NCBI GenBank assembly: GCA_026874595.1 | Contig: CM049313.1 | Location: forward strand, 51,633,659 to 51,697,658 | Length of the DNA stretch: 64,000 bases | Direction of reading: 5' to 3' | Origin: Sipunculus nudus | Lineage: Eukaryota > Annelida > Sipuncula > Golfingiida > Sipunculidae | Shown: piece by piece, positions 9,980 through 64,000 of the stretch | How positions within the stretch are numbered: position 1 is the first letter of the stretch | How the letters are laid out: each line of letters starts with the position of its first letter | Notes under the pieces: generated by a model | Database searches by the model: none | Told to the model about the DNA's origin: nothing | Seen by the model: the letters and a program-made list of their open reading frames with translations, nothing else | Program-made: the position numbers and the translations under genes

Positions 9980-28492
<18,513 letters not shown>

Positions 28493-50364: not shown

Positions 50365-50408
50365 CTGTTTTGATAAAACCTACGTAAACATGTAAACATG
50401 TAATTATA

Positions 50409-50600
50409 CACTCTAAAAAGTGCCGTTTCGCAAGTGTTTTAAAATCCATGGTGGTGTTTCATATAGAAACACGTTTGAACAATAGACATGTTTCGAAACA
50501 CCTGGAACTCAGCTCATGAAAATTTTCCGTGATCGAAACACCAGAAACGTGTTTACAAGAAGTACACACGTCTCAAACGTGTTTTACAAGCGTTTTCTGG
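50409..50600 (+). repeat. CACTA-type terminus with subterminal repeats
   Basis: CACTCTAAAAAGTG is followed by at least six copies of AAACACGTTT/AAACGTGTTT/CGAAACACC in both orientations within 190 bp. The same vocabulary occurs at 38461-38761. CACT-initial termini with short subterminal repeats are the known hallmark of CACTA elements. It also lies immediately upstream of the SAM gene, so it probably overlaps its promoter. Confidence 0.55.
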
Positions 50601-50729
50601 TGCGACCTAAGTCACAACGGGCGTTATATTTGTCCTTTTCAATAACGGGCGGGAGAAGTCTCGGAAGGAAGAAAATGTTCTGACGGAACGCTGCAACTGT
50701 TTTTTAATGTTCTGCTGCCTCACAAAGTA

Positions 50730-50838
50730 ATGGAAGAAACCGAAATTACGTCTGATTCAACCATCGATACTGTGTGTCAGTGGGCAAGAACGAAATTTGC
50801 CGGAGCCGTGCAATCTGCGATTGAGAAGCGGTTGAAAG
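50730..50838 (+). CDS. SAM gene exon 1
   Basis: ATG at 50730 and donor TTGAAAG/GTATCC, phase 1. Encodes the first half of the SAM domain including the conserved Trp (QWARTKF). Confidence 0.75.
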
Positions 50839-53800
50839 GTATCCTAGGCTCAGTATTTAATTATCGTGATTTATATTTAAATATGGTTCATATGAGTACT
50901 TGAATTGTGTTCACAACATGTGAGCACATTGTTAAAATATATATATATATATATATATTACATTACCTAATTTGCTACTTTATATGGTGCACAAGTATTT
51001 GTTTAAAAGTGGTGAACACATCAATAGATTTAGCACCACTCCCCCCCCCCCCCCGCACCAGGTTGTAGCTCTTGTGTATTCACTCGAAATTTGATTTATC
51101 TAGCAGACAGCACATGAAACTGATGCACAGTAGGCCTACTTTTGACAGTGTTCAGCATCTTGTCTACATTTTGGAATGTTAAAATTAAAGAAATTTGTTG
51201 TTTGTTTTCATGTATTTAAATCCCTTGTATATTACTAGCTGCTACACGGCTGTTCACTAGTGAAGGTGAGCAGGTACTTGTAGCACTAGTATATTACCAG
51301 ACATCATGATCCCTGCAATCATGCCATTTATACTAACATGAAATATCAATGAATACAAGAAGTCATCCTAAGTAGGATTCAAACCTGCAATCTCTAGATC
51401 AGAGACCAATTAACATGTTACTAACTGTACCATGGAGGACAAGATACCAGCTGGTAATATAAAATAATATTTCAGTATTTGCAAGGAAATAACATTTAAT
51501 GAAACACCTGTTTGCCATGTCTCATAAAAAGGACGGATTATGAACATACCTGTTTTGGTAACCCTGCATGGCTGAATGCAAGGCTAGCAGTAAAAATGAT
51601 ATATACCTGCTGACTGTATCATGTATGTACCTGCTGACTGAAACAACTGTTAGCTGTGGCCAGCTCACTGGGACATGTGACAGGCCTTGGTCAGCAACAG
51701 GTACACTTACAATTAAGGTACCGTGCAGTACAAGTATCTCAGCTTAGTATTCGGACTAGTACTTGATTTTTCCAGTACATTTTTGGCAAGGATTAATCCA
51801 AGTAATAGTACAGAATTTTTAGGTGTACTCAAGTACATGTACAGGAGTCTGTAATGAAGTACAAAAACATATCATTTAATTCATTTGTATAAAGAAAATG
51901 CACAAATTGTTCTAATTTTTCTTTTATTGTGTATAATAAACATTGTTTATATCTGTATCATTCACTGGATATGGAACAGGTTGCATAATTTGGCTTCTGT
52001 GAGAACATAGAAGTTTATGGTAAAAGGATATTAGTTTTTTGTTTGTTTTTAAAATCTTGTTCTTGACAAGTACTTGATTTTTCAAGTACATTTATTGCAA
52101 GTGCAAGTACAGTACAGGGACTGTATTTGGTTAAAAGTGACAGGTACAGGACAAGAACTCAGATATTTGTACTGAAGTACCAGTACCAAGTACATGTACT
52201 CAACCAAAGTCTGTAGGATGTAGGCCCATTTATTCACCGAGCCACAACTAGGTATAGTAACATCACACACCTCAGTGGTCACCCTAAATATAATGATGAA
52301 TCTTTGCCCATATACCTGTAGTATATGTATCTGTTTTTATCAAGCGATGGGTGCACTTGGTTAAAATTGCCAAGTACAAGTACAGGACAGGTACTCAGAT
52401 ATTTGTACTTAAGTATGAGTACCAAGTACAAGTACATGTACATAACCAAAGTCTGTAGAATGTAGGCCCATTTATTCACAGAGCCACAACTGGGTCTTGT
52501 GACATCACACACCTCAGTTATCACCCAAAGTATAATGATGAATCTCTGCCCATATTCCCATAGTATATATATATATCAGTTTTAATCAAGGGACGGCTGT
52601 ACTTGGTTAAAATTGCCAAGAACAAGTACAGGACAAGTACTCAGATATTTGTTCTTAAGTACAAGTACCAAGATATTTGTTCTTAAGTTCAAGTACCAAG
52701 TACAAGTATATGTACTTGACCAAAGCCTGCGGGATGTAGGCCCTTTTATTCACAGAGCCTCAACTGGGTCTTGTGACATCACACACCTCAGTTATCACCC
52801 AAAGTACAAAGATTGGTCGGTACTTGTATCCCCTTTGTATATATAACAGTATATATATATATAAATTTTAATCAAGCCATATGTTGGTCTCTTAACCCCC
52901 CCCCCCCCCCGAATTGGTCTGAACCAAGTGAGAATCGGTCTGACTTTGCATGTAATAAACATCTTTTTATTATTGTTAATTTATTTGAAAAAAAAAAATA
53001 ATGAATATATCACCTTGGAAACAAAACCCTTGTAAACAATAGCTCTTTTTCTGTCAGTATTTGCAACATGCCAAGATTTTATCAACTTTGGCATAATGCC
53101 AGAAACACATTGGGCCTGTAGGCCTTGTTACAAATACAATTAATACTTTTTCATGATAAACCACCATTTTAAAATATCTACAAATAAGTAAGATGGACAA
53201 GTAGATCCAAGATGAGAGATTTGCTCTGGTGAGACACTGTTGATGGTTTTGTATGGTTATATTCTTGTTTCAATTGGTTTTATTTCTGGCCATCCAAACA
53301 CCACACATGATCATAACAGCTTTATAAGTTATAATAGCGGTTTGCTCTTTTATTTGTAGTATTATAATATGTGATATACCTTCTGCATATATGTTCAAAA
53401 GATATCAGACATATAAATATTGTTATGCAACATGCTTTGTACTATTATTTATGGTTGTGTAGTCAGTAATTACTTATTATAATGCAATTTAATGTTATAT
53501 TCAACAGAAGGCATGTTGCTAATTTTATTTATTTTACAATATTAGTGGGTGTTGATACTTTTCACTGTGTCAAGTTTGAATTTGACACTTTGAGTAGTAG
53601 AATGCACCATTCAAATGATTTTTTTTTTTAGAGAACTTCATTGATGGAGAAGCTTTCTTGAGCCTAAAATTCGAGGATGTGAAGACTATGTTTCCTGAAA
53701 TTGGTTTACAGAAAGCATTTCTCAGGATCCTACAGAATGAACTGGGCCAGGTAATTTAGTCTTATCCTTTCAGGGTGAAATGGAGCCACTGTTCCAGTGC

Positions 53801-56800
53801 ACATTGTGTCCTTGTCAATTTACTCTTAAACCATTGCTGTCGCATCACATATTTAAGAGACACAAAGCCCACCCTTATTTTAATGTGTCATGTGTAGAAT
53901 GTGGAGCATCATATAAAAACTACAATTCCTTTAGGAAACATGTTAAAAGAAACCACAGTTCTGTCCAGGATCCAAGCAGTAATATTGAACAAGTGGACAG
54001 TGATGTTTTAGAAAATGTCAGATTGACAGATGATCAGCTTGCTGACCAGTTAGCAACTACATCACTGCTTGGACTCCTGCTGTTAAAGCTTAAAGCCCAT
54101 TATAATTTGTGTCGAGCTGGACTTCAAGAAGTAGTATCATCATGTTCTGATTTAGTACAACAAGTTGTAAAAGAGACTTGTGAAACTATCCAAGAAAGTG
54201 ATGAGATAAGTGAGGCTCATATAAGTAACATTTGTTCAAAAATCTCAGGAGAGATGATAGCCCCTTTGAATTCTGAATGGCAACAGCAGAAATATTTCAG
54301 GGAGACACTAAATTTGCTGGAACCTATTGAGCTAACAGTTGGAACAAGGATGAAGTGGAATAAAAAAAACAGAAGGATGGTCAAGGTAAAAGCTCAAGGA
54401 TATGTTGTGCCATTTTTGGACAATCTGAGGTCCTTGTTAAAGATCCCTGAAGTTAGGGAATGTATTAAACCAATAGAAAACTATAAAAGCAGGGATGATA
54501 AAATGAGAGACATTTATGATGGTGACTCTTTCAGTGTTACAAGAGAGAAAGAGTGTCAGCTTTGGATTGGGGCTTATTATGATGACCTCGAAATTGCAAA
54601 TCCTGTTGGGGTTCATACAAAAAAACACAAAATTGGAGTCTTCTACTGGCAATTACTGAATATACCACAGCAATATAGGTCTAAGCTACACTGCATACAG
54701 CTTGTTGGTTTGGCTAAAACAAAAGACATTAAATCATTTGGGATGAATGATATCTTAAGTGATTTTACTGGAGGATTGAAAGAACTGTACAGCAATGGGA
54801 TAAATGTGGATGGCCTTGGGGTTCTTTATGGCAAGCTGCTCACATTTAGTGGGGACAATCTGGCATTGCATACAATAGGAGGTTTCAAAGCAGGAGTGGG
54901 TCTTTCACACAGAATTTGCATGTCCTGCTATGCATCAAAGGATCAAATTACAAATCTAACTGTGCATGATGACTGTACATTGCGTCATCTAGAGAGGCAT
55001 ACCCAGGAGTGTGAAATTTTATCAGAGGCTCTAACGCCACAAGCCAGACAATATTGGTCTAAAGAATATGGAGTAAACACAAGATCAGTTTTAATGGGGC
55101 TTCCAGAATTTGACATTACAAAATGCCTACTTCATGACCCCATGCACATATTTTTTGAGGGTATATCCATGTACATTATTAAAGAACTTCTCAAAGATTG
55201 TATTCAGAAACATTTTTTCAGTCTAGCAGACTTAAATAATGCTCTTGAAAAGGTGAATGAATCTGGATCAGTGCCCATGAAGCCTAATCAGGTAGATCAA
55301 ATGTCACTCAAATCAGCTAAACTTAGGCAGACTGCAAGCCAGATGCAGTACTTTTCTCATTTGCTTCCATTGTTCATAGGAAACTTTGTTCCCAAGGATT
55401 ATACAAGATGGCAACACTTCATTGTACTTCTGAAAATACAAACACTAGTAACATCACCAGTGGCAGATGTAATCACAGTAAATTTGCTGAAACAGCTTGT
55501 GGCAGAATTCATCTCACAGGTTCCAGTTCTGTATCCAGATTATGCAACAATCCCCAAAATCCACTATATGGTTCATCTCCCTGAGCAGCTTCAGAAGTTT
55601 GGTCCACTTCGAGCACATTGGTGCATGAGATTCGAAGGAAAAAATCAAACGCAAGAAATACAGAAACTTCAAAAACATTCCTAAGACATTGGCATATTGT
55701 CACCAGCAGTGGATGTGCTTACATCAGTTTGAGAACCCAAGTTTTCTGAATCCCAGCCCAGTAACAAGTATGGGGAAATATGTTCCTCTTCCAGATTATA
55801 TCAGAAACATACCTGATGCACAAGCTGAACAGTGGTTTCTCTCCAGCTGTGTGAGAACATCTGGTGTAACATACAAAACTGGCTCTGTGGTTGTCATTTG
55901 GTCTGAAGGGGCAGATCACTGCATTTTTACTCAAATATCAGAAATATATGTTTCCAGTCTTACCAAAAAGGTGGTCATGTATGGGAAAAGGCACAAGTGT
56001 TCTACATATATTGAAAGTAAAAATGTTTATAACGTTTCTTTCAATGGAGGAGAGGGCATCACCATAGACCCAGGACAACTGGATGTTCCTTGGCCTGCTT
56101 TGTGCTTCCATACAGATGAGGAATACCACACTGTTGTCATCATCTCTGCACCATATGTGGAGCCATGATTATAAATGTAAATATTGTAAATCAGATTATT
56201 TCAAATCTGCTTTTTTTTGGCTCAGTTGACCATATGTGATCTGAGCTATAGCAATGACCCTTTGTCCATCTGTCTGTCCATCCAACCAGATATTGATTAA
56301 CTGCGCACAAACTAAACCAGTAAAGCTACCACCTTGAACTTTTGCATACAAAAACTGTTTATTACCATACATGAAATTGGTAACTGGGACCTAATGCCGT
56401 CATGCAATCAAAAGAAATCTCCATTTTACATGAATATCTAATTGTTACTCTTCAAGACTGCCTGATATTAAAACCACATTTTTTTCCATCAAGTTTCCGT
56501 GAAGGGTTTTCAGTATATTGTCCATGTTTGTGATGATAATTAAATCAATATTGCATAGTTTGTAGAGGTTACTGACTGTAATATGATGTACTAGTCCAAA
56601 AAAGTAGGAAAGATATGAAGTAAATTTAGATTGCACTAAGTTAATAATTTACATGTTAGAGTTATAAAAACTATTTGAGGACGTTATTAATTTTGCTCTA
56701 GATCTTAGTGTATACCAAAGATCAGATCTGACTTTGTGAATTATAGAAGTCATTGCTTTTAATTTATTTCAAGCAAAAAAGGTTTTCCAAATTTATCATT

Positions 56801-59800
56801 GGCAAATTTCTCTGCCAACAGAGATACAATTTAATTCTTCCATTGTGCATTGTTTTCAGGAGGATCTACATGAGTTCCCTGAAATTTTTTAGAACATCAT
56901 TTACTGTAAATGGAAATTTATGTAGACAAAAAGAGGTCCTGTCTAATGTCAGGCTCACTGCTCTTTCTTTCTTTATTTGTCAGTTCCAGTTATCATAGCA
57001 TCATCTTCAGTGGTCACGTTATGACATTGTCATCATTTCATTTCTTATGATGTGATCTCATTCATAGCTTGATCTCTCACAAAAGAATGAATGGTGCGAA
57101 TTGTGTAAATACTTGTTTAGAAATACTGGTCATAAATTACCAACGACAGCATTATCGTTACTGCAGATAACTTTTTTCCCTTTGTTAACATGTGTTAAAC
57201 TGATTAAAAATATAAATAAAAGTAAAGAGTACTATATGTTAATGAAATAAATTATACTTTATTTCCACATTGCATGGGTGTGTGTAGAAAAAATATACAA
57301 TCTGTTTTTGACAGTGTTGCTCTTCTGAACTTTGCAGTCAGTATGTTTGATCTATAAATGTTAATGCTATGATGCTATGTTTGCTGAAAGAATATTATTT
57401 TCACAAGGATTGTATTTTTGTCTACAGAAACTAGATAAAAGGGTATTCATCATTCATGATGCCAGCATAGGTGCTAGAGCAACAGTACTTCATGTAACTG
57501 TTAAATATGACATGCTGATCTGCAGACAACTGAGAGAAAGAACACATTTATGCTATGCAGACAATATTGCCAAGAAATTGCAGGATTTCCACACAAATTA
57601 CTAAAATGCTAGGCCAGGATTTAATTACCCTCCTAGATAATTTCAGCAGAGCACTGTGTCCTATGGATCCCATGTTAGCCAAAAGCATGTTCACTATCAA
57701 TATATGTTATTAAATATAGTATTATCTTCAGGGTAAAACACATTGAAAAATGCATCTACTCCATTATATAACCAATGTCACTTGGTCTCATTCCAGGCAT
57801 TTATACTTTATATACAGGTAGTCTTCCAGTGTGTGTTGTTATTTTTAAAGAGGCTGTAGAATTTCCGATTGTCAGGTAAAAGAAGCAGATAAGGATTATT
57901 TATAATTGGAATAACCTTATAAAAATAAAATTGTTCATATCTGTTTCTCTCTGTCCATTCCCTGACTTTATATTGTCATTACCAACAACAAGACTTAAAC
58001 TGTCATAATTATATTCAAATGATTTACTATTCCACAGGTGTTTGAAGATAACATGCTTCAATCTGAACCCAGTCACTCCCCCAAAGCAGGGCCAAGTCTT
58101 CCTGTGACAGCATCAACTGAGAAACTTGAAGATCTGCCTGTAGTTCCGTACCCAGCCCCGTTACCAAAGTTTTCTGGGCCTATTTCATCTGTGCTGAATG
58201 GGAATGACAAATCGAGGGTTCTTGCTGTTTACAACCAAATAATAGAGGAAGCTGCAGGTTTCTACATGCCTCTCTGTCCCACCAGTTCAGAAAGGGCTAA
58301 GCAGTCATATGAAAACATTGGTATGTTATTTTGTCCACAAATACCACAAAAAAGATTTACTCTTGTTCTCTTTGATGTTTCTCTGTTACATTTTCACTTA
58401 ACATGTTTTATTTCCCCCATACTGCCATTAATGGACTCCATCTATAGCTTTAAGTTCCTAAGGTTCTCAAGTTCTTATCTGTAGTTTCCTATTTTGAGGA
58501 TGTAAACTATAGTCTACATGATTTAAAGTTATATTGAAAAGCTTGTAATAAATATGACATCTGTCACAGACCTTTGATAAAATTTCATTTCCACAGCAGC
58601 TAAGATCATAGGTATAGGTAACTGTGTGAACATAAATATGCCAAAAGGGTTTATTTTTCACTCATTGGTGCTATTTAGGTTATGTTATCATTCACATAAA
58701 CTAAAAGGCCTTTACTGTTGGAACTTGGCTTAGACTGAGCTTGGAGAACAAAGTTATTGTTCCATATGTTTATTTGATCCAGTTTTAAACTGTAGTTCAG
58801 TGTGATGTCTCTAAGTTTAAGGAGCCGAAGAATATTTCTTTACCTGTGGGGTATGGTATAAAAAAAAAACCTGATTAAGGAGCATACTTAGTCCCCCTAA
58901 CTCTAGGAAGGAGGATTATTAAAATGGCCTGTGTCCATCTGTCCGTCCGTCCACACATCCAGCCTCCTCTTTTTACCAATTATCTTTAAAACCCCTGCTG
59001 CTTTCTTCTTTTAAAATAATGTTTCCTGAATCCACAGGACTCTGAATTTTACTGATTAAGAAATGTTATGACTTTTTATGTTTGCATATATTGTGCAAAA
59101 TCTGTTACCTTTTATCTCATGAACTGTTGCACAGGTTTAATATCACACAGGAATGATTCTTTAGTGGTTCTTATTCAAAGTTGTTCGAATGGATCTGATT
59201 CATTGAATTTTAGCTGAGTTATCAGAAGCTGAACTTAGTCATATGCATTTAGAACTCATTTCAGGACTTATTTGTTGGGTAAGACTGATACAAGTTTTCT
59301 TGACTTTTCTTTTCACAGGGAAAACGATGACAATAAAATACCCACTTTTGATAATGGAGGGAAAAAGCAGTTGGCAGTTCTTTAACACAAAATTATCTGC
59401 TTAAATAAGGAACACTAGAAATCGTCGAAAGGAAAAAATGAAGAAATTAAATACAGCTTGTGATGAATACCCAGCAAAAAAACCAAAGCTCTTGTCAACA
59501 GCAAGTTTGGAGGAAGAAGCTTCTCAAACAGAAGAAGAGGAGCTTGAGGTGGAAGATATTATTCAGAAATTAAAGGCAGAAAAAATGAAAGTTCAACCAG
59601 ACATGGAGAAAGTGAAAAAATGGCAAAGGGAAACATTTGAACATCGTAAAGATTGGATACATAGTAAGCCATCAACACAAATTACACTCAGCACAGTATT
59701 GATTGAATATCCTTGGCTAGAGGACACTGTTTGTACAAAACTTGAAATGGAAATGCTTGGATACAAAGAAGAAAGTTTCAAAGAAAACTTTATGGAATTC

Positions 59801-62800
59801 ATGAGAAAAATGGAAAATTTCCAAAACACTGGCTGTGACCTTAAAAAAGAAGCAACCATGTTGGAGCTCCTTAAAATTGCAGAAGCACGTGTTTCCCACA
59901 GAGGAAGAAAAAGAAAGAAGGAAGTGATAAAAATCCTAAAATCTGTAAGTTGTATTATATGTTTTTTGCATTTACCTGTGCTTATTCTGATTACCCTATA
60001 TCTAGCTGTTTAACTCAGCTGACTATAAGTCAACTGAGTTTAAGCAATGGTCCAGCGTCAGTTGTCCGTCTGTCGTTCTGTCCGTCCATCTGTGTATGCT
60101 TCAGTTTTTTATTGTATGGGGGGGGGGAGCTAGACTTTCATTGCCTTTTCAGTTTATTAGCGATCTGTATTTGCATTATGTCATTTGAAATCTAGCAATT
60201 CCATTTAACTTTACCGTTTAATACATTATAATTATAACTTAAAATCTTTTGGTCCATTGTTGTCTTCTTTCATATATTTATTGCAAACTTTCCATTGCTC
60301 TGTTGGGCCAGTATAATATATAAACATTCCTCCTTGACTAGCCCAATCATTTCTTCTACTTTGTCGTTAGTAAACCAGAGGCCTATCTTTTGTTGCTATA
60401 TCTGATCAAAATGCAAAATGCATGTGTGGAATGAACAAATCCAAAATTTATAGATTTTATGCTTGGCAGTTAATTGCCTCATTACAAAATAATCAACAGA
60501 AAAGACTTGTGTGATTAATTCTTCTTTGCATAAACACATTGGGAGTTACATTAGATCATACACAATGCCCATGAGCCATGATACTAGGCTGCATTTGAAG
60601 AATCAAGAGACTCAAGGGGTGTAATGTTCTTGTTAAATAGAACATGGTAATAAATAACGATGAAATAAAATTGTAAACTTGAAAATACCATTTCAGCTGT
60701 AGGCATGCATAAGTGGCACTTCCACAAAGTGGTTTAAATCTGGGAGTGAAATATACCATTACAGATAACAGGAGGGTTAAATTGGTAGTAGTGGGTACTA
60801 ATGTACTCTGGTGGCTTTACCCCAAGTCTCAGTCGAGTACTCATGGTTCTGAACACAGTATGAAGTTCTAAACAGGTAGCTTTTCAACAATGCAAATCAT
60901 GTATATATTGGACTTGGTGATATCTCTATGAATCGTTAGTATACATGCAATATGTAATTTGTTCTTGTAATTTTTATTTCGTTAGCAAGTCTCATCATAT
61001 TGGCCAAAACAAAGCCTGCTCTGGCTATAGAGCCCTACAGTAATAAATAATTAAAGACTGATCTCAGATTTGCTGTGATAAGCAGATATACTTTTAAACC
61101 TTGGATACATGAGTCCTAATTTTGGAACAGAGTGATTGGTTACAGTTGTTCAGACTCTTAGAAGGGCCCCTTTCAGCCTCAGCTCACAGAAAGAAAGGCT
61201 AACATAGGTGGCACTGTCTGTTGTTCAAATGATCAATTTCCTGTAAAACTAGAATACAGGTAGTTGACAAGCGACTAAATGTGTCTGCCAAAATCAGAGT
61301 CGGACTGGTGAAGTGATGCATGGATTGAGTGGCAAGGGGAAATAGATCGAGGTGTGTATGTAGGTTGCGCCACCTACCACAAAATCCAGAGAGCTGTCCA
61401 AGTTATACATATGCAAAATTTTAGGCAGATAAGTCAAACCACTACTTGTAAGTGATTTTATCACACAGCAGACAAACAGAAGGACGCTGAGCAAAAGTAG
61501 TGGCAGGTGGAGCCACCAATTTTGTGTACGATTAAGAGCTATGTAGATCTATACATATGCAAATTTCCAGGGAGATATGTCAAACCAGTCCTGAGATATT
61601 AGCATGGATGTCTGCAGCCAAAATGTGTTTGTAGGTTGCGCCGTCTGCCAAAAAATCGAGAAATGCCATCATAGATGTATAAACATGCAACATTTTAGGC
61701 AGATATGTCAACCACTGCCGAGATATGAGTGATTTTATCCCAAGGCAGATGAACAGATGGACGCTGTGCAAAAATGGTTGCAGGTGGAGCCACCAGTTTT
61801 GACTATGATAAAGAGCTATGTGAGGTCTGAACACTTGCAAATTTTGGCCCAATAGGTCAAACAGTTCCCAAGATATGAGCTATGATGTCTGCAGCATAAA
61901 TATGAATGTAGGTCGCGCCACCTGTCATAAAATCAAGAAAGCTGTCCAGGATGAATACACATGCAAAATTTCAGGTGGATAAGTCAAACCAATGCAGAGA
62001 TATGAGTGATTTTATCCCAAGGCAGACGAACAGATCGATGCTGTGCAAAAATTGTTGCAGGTGGCACCACCATTTTTAGTATATGTTGTAAAGATATCCA
62101 AGGGCTACATTTGTGCAAAATATTTAGCCTGATCGGTCAAACGGTTCCTGAGATATGTGGGTTTATGTGTGGAAACAGATGCACAAATGGATGCTGGGCG
62201 GAAGGGAAAGGTCAAAGGTCAGCCAAAAATGAGGGCGCAGCAGTTCACGTGACCCCATCATAATTCCGAATTTTAAAAAAACTGCCCAGTGGTTACAGAT
62301 GAGTTCTCCGGAAACCTAAGCGGCAGCGACATCTGACTGAAAACATGGTATCCACAAAACTCTGTTCTGGCTGATACAATTAGGTGCTCATAACTGCAGC
62401 CATTCCTGAGATGTTGGTTTACAGACATCATATTATGTATGCAAACACTTCCTGAAAATTTGTGACCAGCAAAATATAGAATTCTATTTCCAAGTTTGAT
62501 TATGCTATGCCTAATATTGTAGTAATCAGGTGTATGCCCTTTTAACAGATGATTGACACAGAAAGGGCCAATAGTATAGCCCAGGTGACTCAGAAAGTGA
62601 CTTCTGTTGCTTGTTGCATTCACATTTTTTTTTTTCAGGAGGAAGTATCACAGAACTCTCTGACATCAGTTACCAGTGAGGAACCGAGTTCAGTTTTTAT
62701 TGTTGATAAAGGAGAGGTCAGATCAAGCGTTATTTTGGGAGATGGAAAACAGATCAATCTGATCAAGGAAGGATGTGTGTGGGAGACGTGCTTTCTTTTA

Positions 62801-62947
62801 CTGGGATGGTATTACATCCTTAACCTCACATATCCACTACCCAACATGCAACTGTTGAATTTGCTTCAAGAAAACTGCCTTGAAGAAGAGGTTCCCATGA
62901 AGGACAAGTCTACAGGTTATAAGCAGTTTGTGGCTCTGCTCAAATGA
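50730..62947 (+). CDS. SAM-domain protein of the transposon-associated SAMD3-like type (5 exons, one in-frame stop)
   Basis: Exons 50730-50838, 53632-53750, 58038-58320, 59319-59944 and 62639-62947 join in phase to 482 codons. Residues ~13-76 form a SAM domain (VCQWARTKF, then ENFIDGEAFLSLKFEDVKTMF and a closing helix FLRILQNEL), a protein-protein or oligomerisation module. A Pro/Ser linker with LPKFSGPISSVL follows at ~125-135. Then come a region resembling the fish SAMD3-like family (KYPLL, W..FF), an acidic and Lys-rich coiled segment, a basic RGRKRKKE cluster at ~367 (possible nuclear signal) and a hydrophobic C-terminal block (CFLLLGWYYILNLTYPLP). Codon 199 is TAA (59402-59404) in an otherwise open exon, predicting a 198-aa truncated product. 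A new ATG occurs at codon 211. It may be a lesion, a polymorphism or a base error. Confidence 0.75.
51357..51456 (-). repeat. tRNA-derived SINE-like fragment, copy 2
   Basis: The minus strand reads CAGCTGGTATCTTGTCCTCC...AGTTAGTAAC...AGAGATTGCAGGTTTGAATCC, with recognisable A- and B-box-like segments. It matches copy 1 at 8398-8492, with copy-specific substitutions in both boxes. Confidence 0.6.
51700..51850. repeat. GTAC-rich repeat patch
   Basis: Strings such as AGTACTTGATTTTTCCAGTAC and CTCAAGTACATGTACAG, the same vocabulary as 9480-9625 and the 242-bp array. Confidence 0.6.
52060..52860. repeat. ~242-bp satellite-like tandem array, three units
   Basis: CATCACACACCTCAGT recurs at 52261, 52503 and 52777 (spacings 242 and 274). 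Each unit carries AAGTACAAGTAC-type palindromes, GTAGGCCC.TTTATTCAC.GAGCC and TTTTAATCAAG. The third unit has an extra ~32 bp from local reduplication of its GTAC segment. Confidence 0.9.
53632..53750 (+). CDS. SAM gene exon 2
   Basis: Acceptor TTTTTTTTTTAG at 53631 and donor GGCCAG/GTAATT. Enters phase 1, leaves phase 0. Encodes ENFIDGEAFLSLKFEDVKTM and the final SAM helix. Confidence 0.8.
53780..55684 (+). CDS. Zinc-finger transposase, 5' frame (634 codons)
   Basis: Continuous open frame holding both zinc fingers and the proposed catalytic region. Its last ~16 codons follow the frameshift and are not homologous to the family. The stop TAA is at 55682. Confidence 0.8.
   Translation: MEPLFQCTLCPCQFTLKPLLSHHIFKRHKAHPYFNVSCVECGASYKNYNSFRKHVKRNHSSVQDPSSNIEQVDSDVLENVRLTDDQLADQLATTSLLGLLLLKLKAHYNLCRAGLQEVVSSCSDLVQQVVKETCETIQESDEISEAHISNICSKISGEMIAPLNSEWQQQKYFRETLNLLEPIELTVGTRMKWNKKNRRMVKVKAQGYVVPFLDNLRSLLKIPEVRECIKPIENYKSRDDKMRDIYDGDSFSVTREKECQLWIGAYYDDLEIANPVGVHTKKHKIGVFYWQLLNIPQQYRSKLHCIQLVGLAKTKDIKSFGMNDILSDFTGGLKELYSNGINVDGLGVLYGKLLTFSGDNLALHTIGGFKAGVGLSHRICMSCYASKDQITNLTVHDDCTLRHLERHTQECEILSEALTPQARQYWSKEYGVNTRSVLMGLPEFDITKCLLHDPMHIFFEGISMYIIKELLKDCIQKHFFSLADLNNALEKVNESGSVPMKPNQVDQMSLKSAKLRQTASQMQYFSHLLPLFIGNFVPKDYTRWQHFIVLLKIQTLVTSPVADVITVNLLKQLVAEFISQVPVLYPDYATIPKIHYMVHLPEQLQKFGPLRAHWCMRFEGKNQTQEIQKLQKHS
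55645..56168 (+). CDS. Zinc-finger transposase, 3' frame
   Basis: Frame +1 relative to the 5' frame, open to TGA at 56166-56168. Contains VRTSGVTYKTGSVVVIW, similar to the C-terminal GxxYKxGxVL segment of the animal families, and ends PYVEP. The first ATG in this frame is only at 55713, so as an independent gene it would lack a plausible start. It reads better as the displaced C terminus. Confidence 0.75.
56217..57675 (+). repeat. Diverged copy of dispersed family 1
   Basis: GGCTCAGTTGACCATATGTGATCTGAGCTATAG at the start, ACTCTTCAAGACTGCCTGATATTAAAACCAC within, and CAGCAGAGCACTGTGTCCTATGGATCCCATGTT at the end match the head, middle and tail of copies A and B in order. AATAAA at 57215 and 57246 are possible poly(A) signals for the transposase transcript. 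Confidence 0.55.
57428..57604 (+). other. Possible alternative terminal exon
   Basis: A good acceptor (TTTTTGTCTACAG) is followed by a phase-0 frame (KLDKRVFIIHDASIGARATV...) running 58 codons to TAA. It would be in frame if joined to SAM exon 2, but it falls inside a diverged repeat copy and shows no family resemblance. Probably intronic. Confidence 0.2.
58038..58320 (+). CDS. SAM gene exon 3
   Basis: Acceptor ACTATTCCACAG at 58037 and donor AACATTG/GTATGT. Phase 0 in, phase 1 out. Encodes VFEDNMLQSEPS, a Pro-rich linker, LPKFSGPISSVLN and the helix RVLAVYNQIIEEAAG. Confidence 0.8.
58321..59318 (+). other. SAM gene intron 3
   Basis: Includes GTCCATCTGTCCGTCCGTCC near 58930 and a segment at 59140-59240 related to repeats in JMY intron 6 (GAATTTTAGCTGAGTTATCAGAAGCTGAACTTAGTCAT). 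Confidence 0.6.
59319..59944 (+). CDS. SAM gene exon 4 with in-frame TAA
   Basis: Acceptor TTCTTTTCACAG at 59318 and consensus donor TCT/GTAAGT. The reading phase set by exon 3 is open for 27 codons to TAA at 59402. It then stays open for the remaining 180 codons to the donor, in phase with exon 5. Sequence before and after the stop reads as one protein (W..FF.TKLSA, then IRNTRNRRKEKMKKL). Confidence 0.7.
60011..60110 (+). repeat. Head of dispersed family 1
   Basis: TAACTCAGCTGACTATAAGTCAACTGAGTTTAAGC followed by GTCCGTCTGTCGTTCTGTCCGTCC. Only the first ~100 bp are recognisable. Confidence 0.6.
61270..62200. repeat. ~278-bp tandem array in the last SAM intron
   Basis: GCAGGTGGAGCCACCA recurs near 61503, 61780 and 62057 (as GGCACCACCA), a spacing of about 278 bp. 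GTAGGTTGCGCC and GAGATATGAGTGATTTTATCCCAAGGCAGA recur in register. About 3.3 copies. Confidence 0.85.
62639..62947 (+). CDS. SAM gene exon 5 (terminal)
   Basis: Acceptor T11CAG at 62638. Phase-0 frame of 102 codons to TGA at 62945. Contains VIWET-like GCVWETCFLLLGWYYILNLT and ends KQFVALLK. Confidence 0.8.
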   Translation, partial: EEVSQNSLTSVTSEEPSSVFIVDKGEVRSSVILGDGKQINLIKEGCVWETCFLLLGWYYILNLTYPLPNMQLLNLLQENCLEEEVPMKDKSTGYKQFVALLK

Positions 62948-63297
62948 CTTCATTACAACTCATTGACTCTACCCTATAATACCTGATGCTTAGATTACAG
63001 TGTGATAAAAACCTGTGTTATTAGTAGTTTGCAGCAGTGCTGAAATTGCAATTTTATATTGATTAGGGCATGATTTCTGGTATTTGAAAGTTATGAGGAG
63101 TAGTTCAGGATTTTTTATTGATGTTAAACACTTTACATTATTAAAGCATATTAAAACTTGTTTTTCATATTTTTGTAAAGTTAGTCAGTTAGATCGATGT
63201 TTTATTTTGGTATGAGCATAGTGATTTATAGTAAATCAATGAAAAACTAACAGCTGCTGGTAAAAACGACCCTTGAAAAGTATCCAATTTTTATATT

Positions 63298-63303
63298 AAT
63301 AAA
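63298..63303 (+). terminator. Poly(A) signal candidate of the SAM gene
   Basis: AATAAA about 350 nt after the stop. An ATTAAA also occurs near 63138. Confidence 0.35.
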
Positions 63304-63345
63304 TCAGTAATGCTTCCTTTGAACAGAAAATTTAAGTTTTACACT

Positions 63346-64000
63346 TTTATTAGCTCAGCTGACTATAAGTCATCTGAGCTATAGTCATGGTCCTTTGTCC
63401 ATCGTTTGTCCATCCATCCATTAACAGGGCACATTTTGAAACTTGGAGCTACAAATCCAAAATTTTGCATACAGTTAGATGTCCCCAAAATCTCCTACCA
63501 TGCCAAAAATTGGGTCATTAGGACTTTGTTCCTTTGAGATATTAAGGAAATACCTATGTTTTCCATTAAAAACCTATTGATACACTTCAAGACTGCCTAA
63601 TATCAAAACCACTGATCTGTTTTACATCATATTTAATATGCATATTTTTAATTCCATACATTTCCTGTGTTCAAACCAAAAATTGGTTCAGTATTACTTA
63701 ATTTATTGAAGTTATACGCCCAAACATAATGCACTTTTTAAAAAATCAGGAAATATATTTACTCACTTAACATAAGAATTGCTGAAGCTAGATACTTTTT
63801 TTTCAGGGATATAACTTTATTTAATCAAGGTCCAATTGTTTACCAAAAAGAAGATCTAAATTTTGCAATTTTTTAAAGTTATTAGCATAAATAAAAAATC
63901 AATACCTTAAATTTTGGCCACGGCACAATTTTCCCCTGTAAGCTCTGTTGATTTAATTTTCACAGCATATATACATAATTTAATTTATTAAAATCTGAAA
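63346..64000 (+). repeat. Dispersed family 1, copy cut by the window edge
   Basis: TTAGCTCAGCTGACTATAAGTCATCTGAGCTATAGTCATGG onward aligns closely with 12103 and 18199 (for example ACTTCAAGACTGCCTAATATCAAAACCACTGATCTG). It runs to the end of the window. Confidence 0.85.

Follow-up and report, generated by a model that had tools for sequence, protein, structure and literature searches.

In the transposon En/Spm, the transposase frames are located in an intron of the tnpA transcript. This CACTA element of maize has CACT-type ends, dense subterminal repeats, and two required products that derive from one alternatively spliced unit (PMC1636069). Here, we describe a locus of similar layout in the annelid Sipunculus nudus. 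It lies in a stretch of 64,000 nucleotides (the window; contig C8, positions 51633659-51697658), where a five-exon gene encoding a SAM-domain protein holds a transposase gene in its second intron. The genome that we searched comprises 1,426,538,692 bases in 153 contigs, and all results below refer to this one genome of one species. Our findings make it probable (roughly 0.85) that the locus, in an animal host, is a DNA transposon of the CACTA/EnSpm (CMC) type, 16.5 kb long and moving by cut and paste, with two genes nested in one unit.

Several described elements provide a basis for comparison. In plants, DUF4218 and Transposase_21 co-occur in CACTA transposases (PMC8978399), and PMC12730594 gives the CMCT group a motif set of D, D, C(2)C, H(3-4)H, and E together with a range of target duplications that includes 2 bp. 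The window element is like En/Spm in its CACT-type ends, its subterminal repeats, and the nested order of its two genes. Unlike its plant counterpart, it has 2-bp rather than 3-bp duplications, an accessory protein with a SAM domain, C2H2-like fingers in the transposase, and an animal host. SmTRC1 of Schistosoma mansoni is an animal CACTA-related element that makes several products by alternative splicing. It shares with the window element the 2-bp duplications (7 of 14 SmTRC1 copies) and the prospect of several spliced products from one element, including two tandem open reading frames in one SmTRC1 transcript. Yet SmTRC1 is 4.5 kb long with a CCC core and a 54-bp terminal inverted repeat, its products outside the Transposase_21 domain are reported as not detectably conserved, and the portions of its description at hand mention no SAM domain (PMC1636069). 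The fungal elements with an extra gene that PMC12730594 describes carry a TET/JBP dioxygenase, whereas the window element carries a SAM protein. No SAM-domain partner for CACTA-type elements was found among the papers listed in the literature searches, which left most subscription journals outside, and no Repbase record of one was met. The initial annotation of the window had not known the arrangement to be described. Because SmTRC1 is already in print as a spliced, multi-product, CACTA-related element of an animal (PMC1636069), that view needs narrowing: only the SAM partner appears to be new.

Ends, target duplications, and gene content

The SAM gene occupies positions 50730-62947 on the + strand (Table 1). 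Its introns are all GT-AG, and its phases (1, 0, 1, 0) are compatible throughout. On the same strand, an open frame of 647 codons (53741-55684; approximately 3e-14 expected by chance) contains the transposase, whose first good ATG, at 53780, is 29 bp past the exon-2 donor and within SAM intron 2. A CACT-initial terminus and short subterminal repeats stand just upstream of the gene pair. Copy comparison places the 5' boundary of the element at 50409: CACTCTAAAAAGTG is present in four other copies, and alignments to the window end 0-7 bp upstream. The termini, CACT...AGTG, follow a CAC..GTG pattern: the 5' one reads CACTCTAAAAAGTG and the 3' one CAGCTTTTACAGTG. The two genes, their nesting, and the upstream terminus had all been recognized in the initial annotation and are confirmed here. 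It had also bounded the locus at 50409..63303, of which the start coincides with the 5' end of the element, while the true 3' end is past the edge of the window. Its expectation of 3-bp target duplications, which are the plant type, failed, both in the window family and in a more divergent copy on contig C2.

Copies of the element occur at several sites, bounded by conserved ends and flanked by 2-bp duplications. Such duplications were present in all four window-family copies with both ends read, namely, the window copy (TA/TA) and those at C17:28.8 Mb (TA/TA), C17:8.06 Mb (TG/TG), and C12:52.6 Mb (TA/TA). Three other copies were less complete, with only the 3' end found on C11, only the 5' end at C17:23.6 Mb, and neither on C1. 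The motif AAACGTGTTT, counted on either strand, occurs three times in 64 kb, always within 50467-50584, and is confined to the 5' end of the window-family element. The final 500 bp of the element hold 10 copies of GAAACA and 14 of the 43 copies of AAACATG in 72 kb. The number of GAAACA per 300 bp reaches its maximum of 7 at the 3' end, and a non-element stretch near 38.5 kb reaches 6. Both ends carry subterminal repeats in both orientations and are rich in the GAAACA type; the C2 lineage, too, has subterminal repeats at both ends. The terminus pattern had no match among viral contigs.

On sequence grounds, the window copy is a recent insertion that is now broken. In the stretches compared, its DNA is 98.5-99.5% identical to that of copies elsewhere. 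The window transposase is frame-shifted near 55.64 kb, and SAM exon 4 contains an in-frame stop. The copy at C17:28.8 Mb has an uninterrupted transposase and an exon 4 that runs on beyond the site of the window stop, and in the six other near-identical copies the exon 4 frame amounts to 268 amino acids. The long open frames would also suit a domesticated transposon that now serves the host, but the stop and the frameshift in the window copy speak against such service, and the near-identity of copies at other sites is what recent insertions would give. We consider domestication of this locus scarcely credible.

Table 1. Features of the element and their positions in the window
Feature	Position	Strand	Remark
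Left target duplication, TA (2 bp)	50407..50408	.	Right TA follows the 3' end, C8:51700520-51700521
Part of the element within the window	50409..64000	+	Total 16,453 bp; the last 2,861 bp, closing with CAGCTTTTACAGTG, are outside the window
5' terminus, CACTCTAAAAAGTG	50409..50422	+	Inverted match to the 3' terminus, imperfect
5' subterminal repeats, GAAACAC / AAACGTGTTT, both orientations	50424..50610	.	Dense 3' repeat zone beyond the window
SAM exon 1, ATG and first half of SAM domain	50730..50838	+	C2 copy has the corresponding exon
SAM exon 2, second half of SAM domain	53632..53750	+	Profile match of joined exons
Transposase, first part	53780..55684	+	Two C2H2-like fingers, D268/D269, D359, CxxC 380-383, H456, E460, DUF4218-like start
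Transposase, C-terminal part after the frameshift	55629..56168	+	C17:28.8 Mb and C2 copies keep a single frame
SAM exon 3	58038..58320	+	Phase and splice reading, C2 comparison
SAM exon 4	59319..59944	+	In-frame TAA at 59402-59404 in the window copy
SAM exon 5, conserved C-terminal domain and stop	62639..62947	+	Genome matches
AATAAA, candidate polyadenylation signal for the SAM gene	63298..63303	+	Motif
Repeat akin to 12102-13401 and 18199-19148	63347..64000	+	Also in the C11 and C17:28.8 Mb copies

Joint recurrence of the SAM gene and the transposase

The two genes recur together. With the transposase as query, the best 69 of 224 candidates were scored, giving at least 69 matches in at least 58 merged loci; with exon 5, the best 150 of 298 candidates gave at least 147 matches in at least 132 merged loci. 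Seven merged transposase loci were near-identical (93-100% by match). In all seven, exon 2 was just upstream, with a gap of 20 bp between the exon-2 and transposase matches, while exons 4 and 5 were downstream on the same strand. A genome-wide search with exon 4 (E 1e-3) yielded 24 matches in 21 merged loci. Within 30 kb of a transposase match, nine exon-4 loci were downstream on the same strand, and none were upstream or on the opposite strand (0.013 expected). For exon 5, at least 11 loci near a transposase match were downstream, 1 was upstream, and 0 were opposite (0.08 expected). Exon 2 had 17 matches, 13 of which were followed within 61 bp by a transposase match on the same strand (counted by eye); besides the near-identical copies, these included six with 47-69% identity in exon 2. 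At C12:17.57 Mb, an exon-2 match had adjoining exon 4 and exon 5 matches with no transposase match, as if by internal deletion, and three more exon-2 matches had no transposase match nearby.

These counts bear on a different explanation, in which the SAM gene belongs to the host and a separate transposon has inserted into its second intron. A host gene family would leave many exon-5-like loci on their own, and 121 of the 132 such loci among the matches listed are not downstream of a listed transposase match; 4 of the 17 exon-2 matches also lack an adjoining transposase. Yet the terminus and subterminal repeats flank the gene on both sides, before exon 1 and after exon 5, which places every SAM exon within the repeated unit. 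Furthermore, only 29 bp separate the exon-2 donor from the transposase ATG, too few to hold the left end of a separate transposon, and the nested pair is found at all seven near-identical loci as well as in a lineage of approximately 50% identity. Insertion into a host gene is very improbable in light of this evidence. The 121 unpaired loci could be defective copies, members of other families, or host genes, or their transposase match could have fallen outside the best candidates scored.

Stop codons interrupt seven exon-5 matches of 92-94% identity (C16:59460412, C5:47761170, C4:21912680, C15:1793132, C2:39012676, C17:50701041, and C2:51410630). An exon-4 tail accompanies six of the seven, and no transposase match lies close to any of them. 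Judging from their composition, they are probably a subfamily of deletion derivatives.

The copy on contig C2 represents a second lineage of the element, in which the transposase is 58% and the SAM protein 48% identical to those of the window. It keeps the nested five-exon layout, with phases after exons 1-4 identical to the window and with exon lengths of 121, 119, 283, 635, and approximately 310 bp versus 109, 119, 283, 626, and 309 bp. Its SAM frame is open, as is its transposase of 798 amino acids, whose ATG is 19 bp past the exon-2 donor. The ends of the C2 element are CACTGTAAAAATGACGTTTC and ...CCTCAGTTTTTAGAGTG, with GAAACA repeats at both, and conform to the CAC..GTG pattern (CACTGTAAAAA and TTTTTAGAGTG). 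For this one pair of copies, the proportion of synonymous sites that differ (pS) is 0.80-0.81, which is saturated, and that of nonsynonymous sites (pN) is 0.35 for the SAM protein and 0.25 for the transposase, giving pN/pS of 0.44 and 0.31, respectively. Because synonymous change is saturated while pN is lower, both proteins have been kept by selection as the elements diverged. No other evidence speaks as strongly for the SAM gene being a functional component of the element as this purifying selection on two jointly inherited genes. Taken together, the pair recurs in the window's own genome in the way that the initial annotation had proposed to look for in other genomes of the clade, nested in the same order at the seven near-identical loci and in the lineage of approximately 50% identity, and between matching termini where both ends were read; the observation is confirmed and its interpretation is supported as largely right.

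The encoded proteins and their distant relatives

The SAM assignment derives from exons 1 and 2. When joined, they match the SAM_Ste50p profile (E 3.2e-4; 21.3 bits, with a cut-off of 21), and neither exon alone matches a SAM profile. The whole joined protein scores 17.7 bits against SAM_Ste50p, under the cut-off, and exons 1 and 2 of the C2 copy match SAM_3 (E 0.012) and SAM_1 (E 0.015), both under the cut-off. A complete SAM gene was read in two copies only, the window copy with its stop and the open C2 copy. By codon statistics, for which the transposase frame and an exon of a JMY/WHAMM homologue elsewhere in the window served as the training set, the coding frame is preferred in exons 2, 4, and 5. 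By the same measure, exon 3 is marginal, with a reverse frame scoring higher, and exon 1 falls below the noncoding mean and has no coding look. Searches of the PDB with the SAM protein returned nothing, or a single irrelevant match at E 0.16, and short exact peptide patterns from exons 4 and 5 found no relative among viral contigs. The C-terminal half of the accessory protein may resemble vertebrate SAMD3.

The transposase would be of the DDE type, with two C2H2-like fingers toward its N-terminus. Its residues D268/269, D359, C380, C383, H456, and E460 are invariant in all four transposases aligned, in the order D, D, C(2)C, H, E; the C2C-H-E part by itself arises in 200 of 5,000 shuffles. The window transposase matches DUF4218 (E 0.0075; 16.6 bits, cut-off 27) and has no match to Transposase_21. 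Two distant relatives match DUF4218 (E 0.018 and 0.05), and one of them, 25% identical, also matches Transposase_21 (E 5.3e-5; 22.9 bits, cut-off 28.6). These two domains and the D-D-CxxC-H-E pattern, along with the CAC..GTG ends, support the original proposal of an animal CACTA-type element, with a transposase of CACTA/EnSpm type in the CMC sense for which the profile evidence is weak. Searches of the PDB with the transposase returned mostly zinc fingers. Viral contigs and prokaryote genomes, screened with short exact peptide patterns, gave no relative of the transposase, and neither did phages by tblastn.

Several observations weigh against a CACTA-type transposon with an accessory SAM gene, as do the unpaired exon-5-like loci described above. 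The C2 copy is flanked by GT and CG and so has no target duplication, and with its full-length accessory protein no Pfam family reaches even E 1. The Transposase_21 and DUF4218 matches fall in the right order, but every score is under the Pfam cut-off. The first histidine of the H(3)H motif (position 452) is present in two of the four aligned transposases and missing in the other two. CLAMP, an unrelated family, scores about as well as the CACTA profiles on the window transposase, a match that we treated as chance. Finally, a splice acceptor at 53773, just before the transposase ATG, ranks at the 99.1 percentile among all AG sites (by a generic matrix) and is not conserved in the C2 lineage, which weakens it as the feature that defines the transposase exon.

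Two more distant families extend the comparison. One has a transposase of 823 amino acids that is 25% identical to that of the window over the alignment. It is represented at C8:30050001-30068000 and at 11 other loci and appears to be young: the 12 loci are at least 94% identical, and 7 of the 12 are full length without stops, most of them at 99-100% identity, suggesting that the family has likely been active recently. In 10 of the 12 loci, an accessory exon 5 follows the transposase on the same strand, compared with 3 of 32 other transposase loci in the same search, and 10 of 23 loci matched by the family's own exon-5 query are not downstream of a transposase. The accessory gene aligns with the C-terminal half of the SAM gene (hhalign E 2.8e-9, with segments picked by eye), while tblastn of the SAM protein in the region gave nothing better than E 3. 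The C15 family matches the SAM protein in an 18-kb region (tblastn E 5.5e-5 and 4.7e-4) and the SAM gene by hhalign (E 9.6e-10, with chosen segments). When the whole genome was searched with exons 4 and 5 (E 1e-3), neither region was among the matches listed. In the 823-amino-acid family, the first coding exon seen for the accessory gene is located after the transposase and has only a weak DUF5537 match, with no match to a SAM profile. Because of this, the SAM domain and strict nesting characterize the window lineage and its nearer relatives rather than the entire clade.

CACTA elements can carry extra sequence, and the SAM gene might be a captured host gene, a passenger that plays no part in transposition. 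The lack of a SAM match in the first accessory exon of the 823-amino-acid family fits that idea. But the SAM protein is under purifying selection between elements whose synonymous change is saturated, and a related accessory gene accompanies distant transposases, where a passenger would hardly have been retained for so long in several lineages. We regard passenger cargo as unlikely.

Possible roles of the two proteins

The anatomy of the element suggests that both proteins are made from transcripts initiated near the 5' terminus, which may share a first exon. Removal of intron 2 would yield the SAM mRNA. The transposase mRNA would either retain intron 2 or use another 3' splice site beside the transposase ATG. 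When read through the exon-2 donor, the SAM frame stops 1 base before the transposase ATG in C2 and 20 bases before it in the window; because the frame ends so close to that ATG, ribosomes could translate a short SAM frame and then reinitiate. By analogy with En/Spm, the accessory protein may bind the GAAACA-type subterminal repeats, and self-association or oligomerization of the SAM domain may pair the ends of the element for the transposase, as is thought for TNPA with TNPD. The transposase would then do the cutting.

Our study points to an animal counterpart of the two-protein logic that plants show in En/Spm, here with a SAM-domain partner and with both genes jointly kept by selection. It thereby becomes possible to test what CACTA elements require a second protein for, and whether self-association of the SAM domain does the work of TNPA in end pairing. 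For annotators, multi-copy SAM-domain genes in animals are worth checking as possible transposon genes. A wider proposal, which we offer tentatively and at less than even odds, is that there is a clade of animal CACTA elements with its own conserved partner, in which the SAM domain (or another N-terminal domain) polymerizes on the subterminal repeats and so joins the ends. Under the same proposal, some SAM genes of animals, with vertebrate SAMD3 as a conceivable case, may be domesticated descendants of such elements.

Other sequences in the window include dispersed repeats that start like TTAGCTCAGCTGACTATAAGTC, at 12102, 18199, 22390, 56212, 60009, and 63347, with the longer copies being approximately 1 kb. 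The repeat at 63347 was ruled out as the end of the element and is carried inside it, because both of the other copies that were read contain it. Tandem repeats occupy introns 1 and 4 of the SAM gene (52135-52672 and 61358-62077), with units of 242 bp and 277 bp, respectively. The JMY/WHAMM homologue, which points to an animal host, contributes an exon at 9983-10864 on the + strand (Pfam JMY E 3.4e-29; WHAMM-JMY_N E 9.4e-25).

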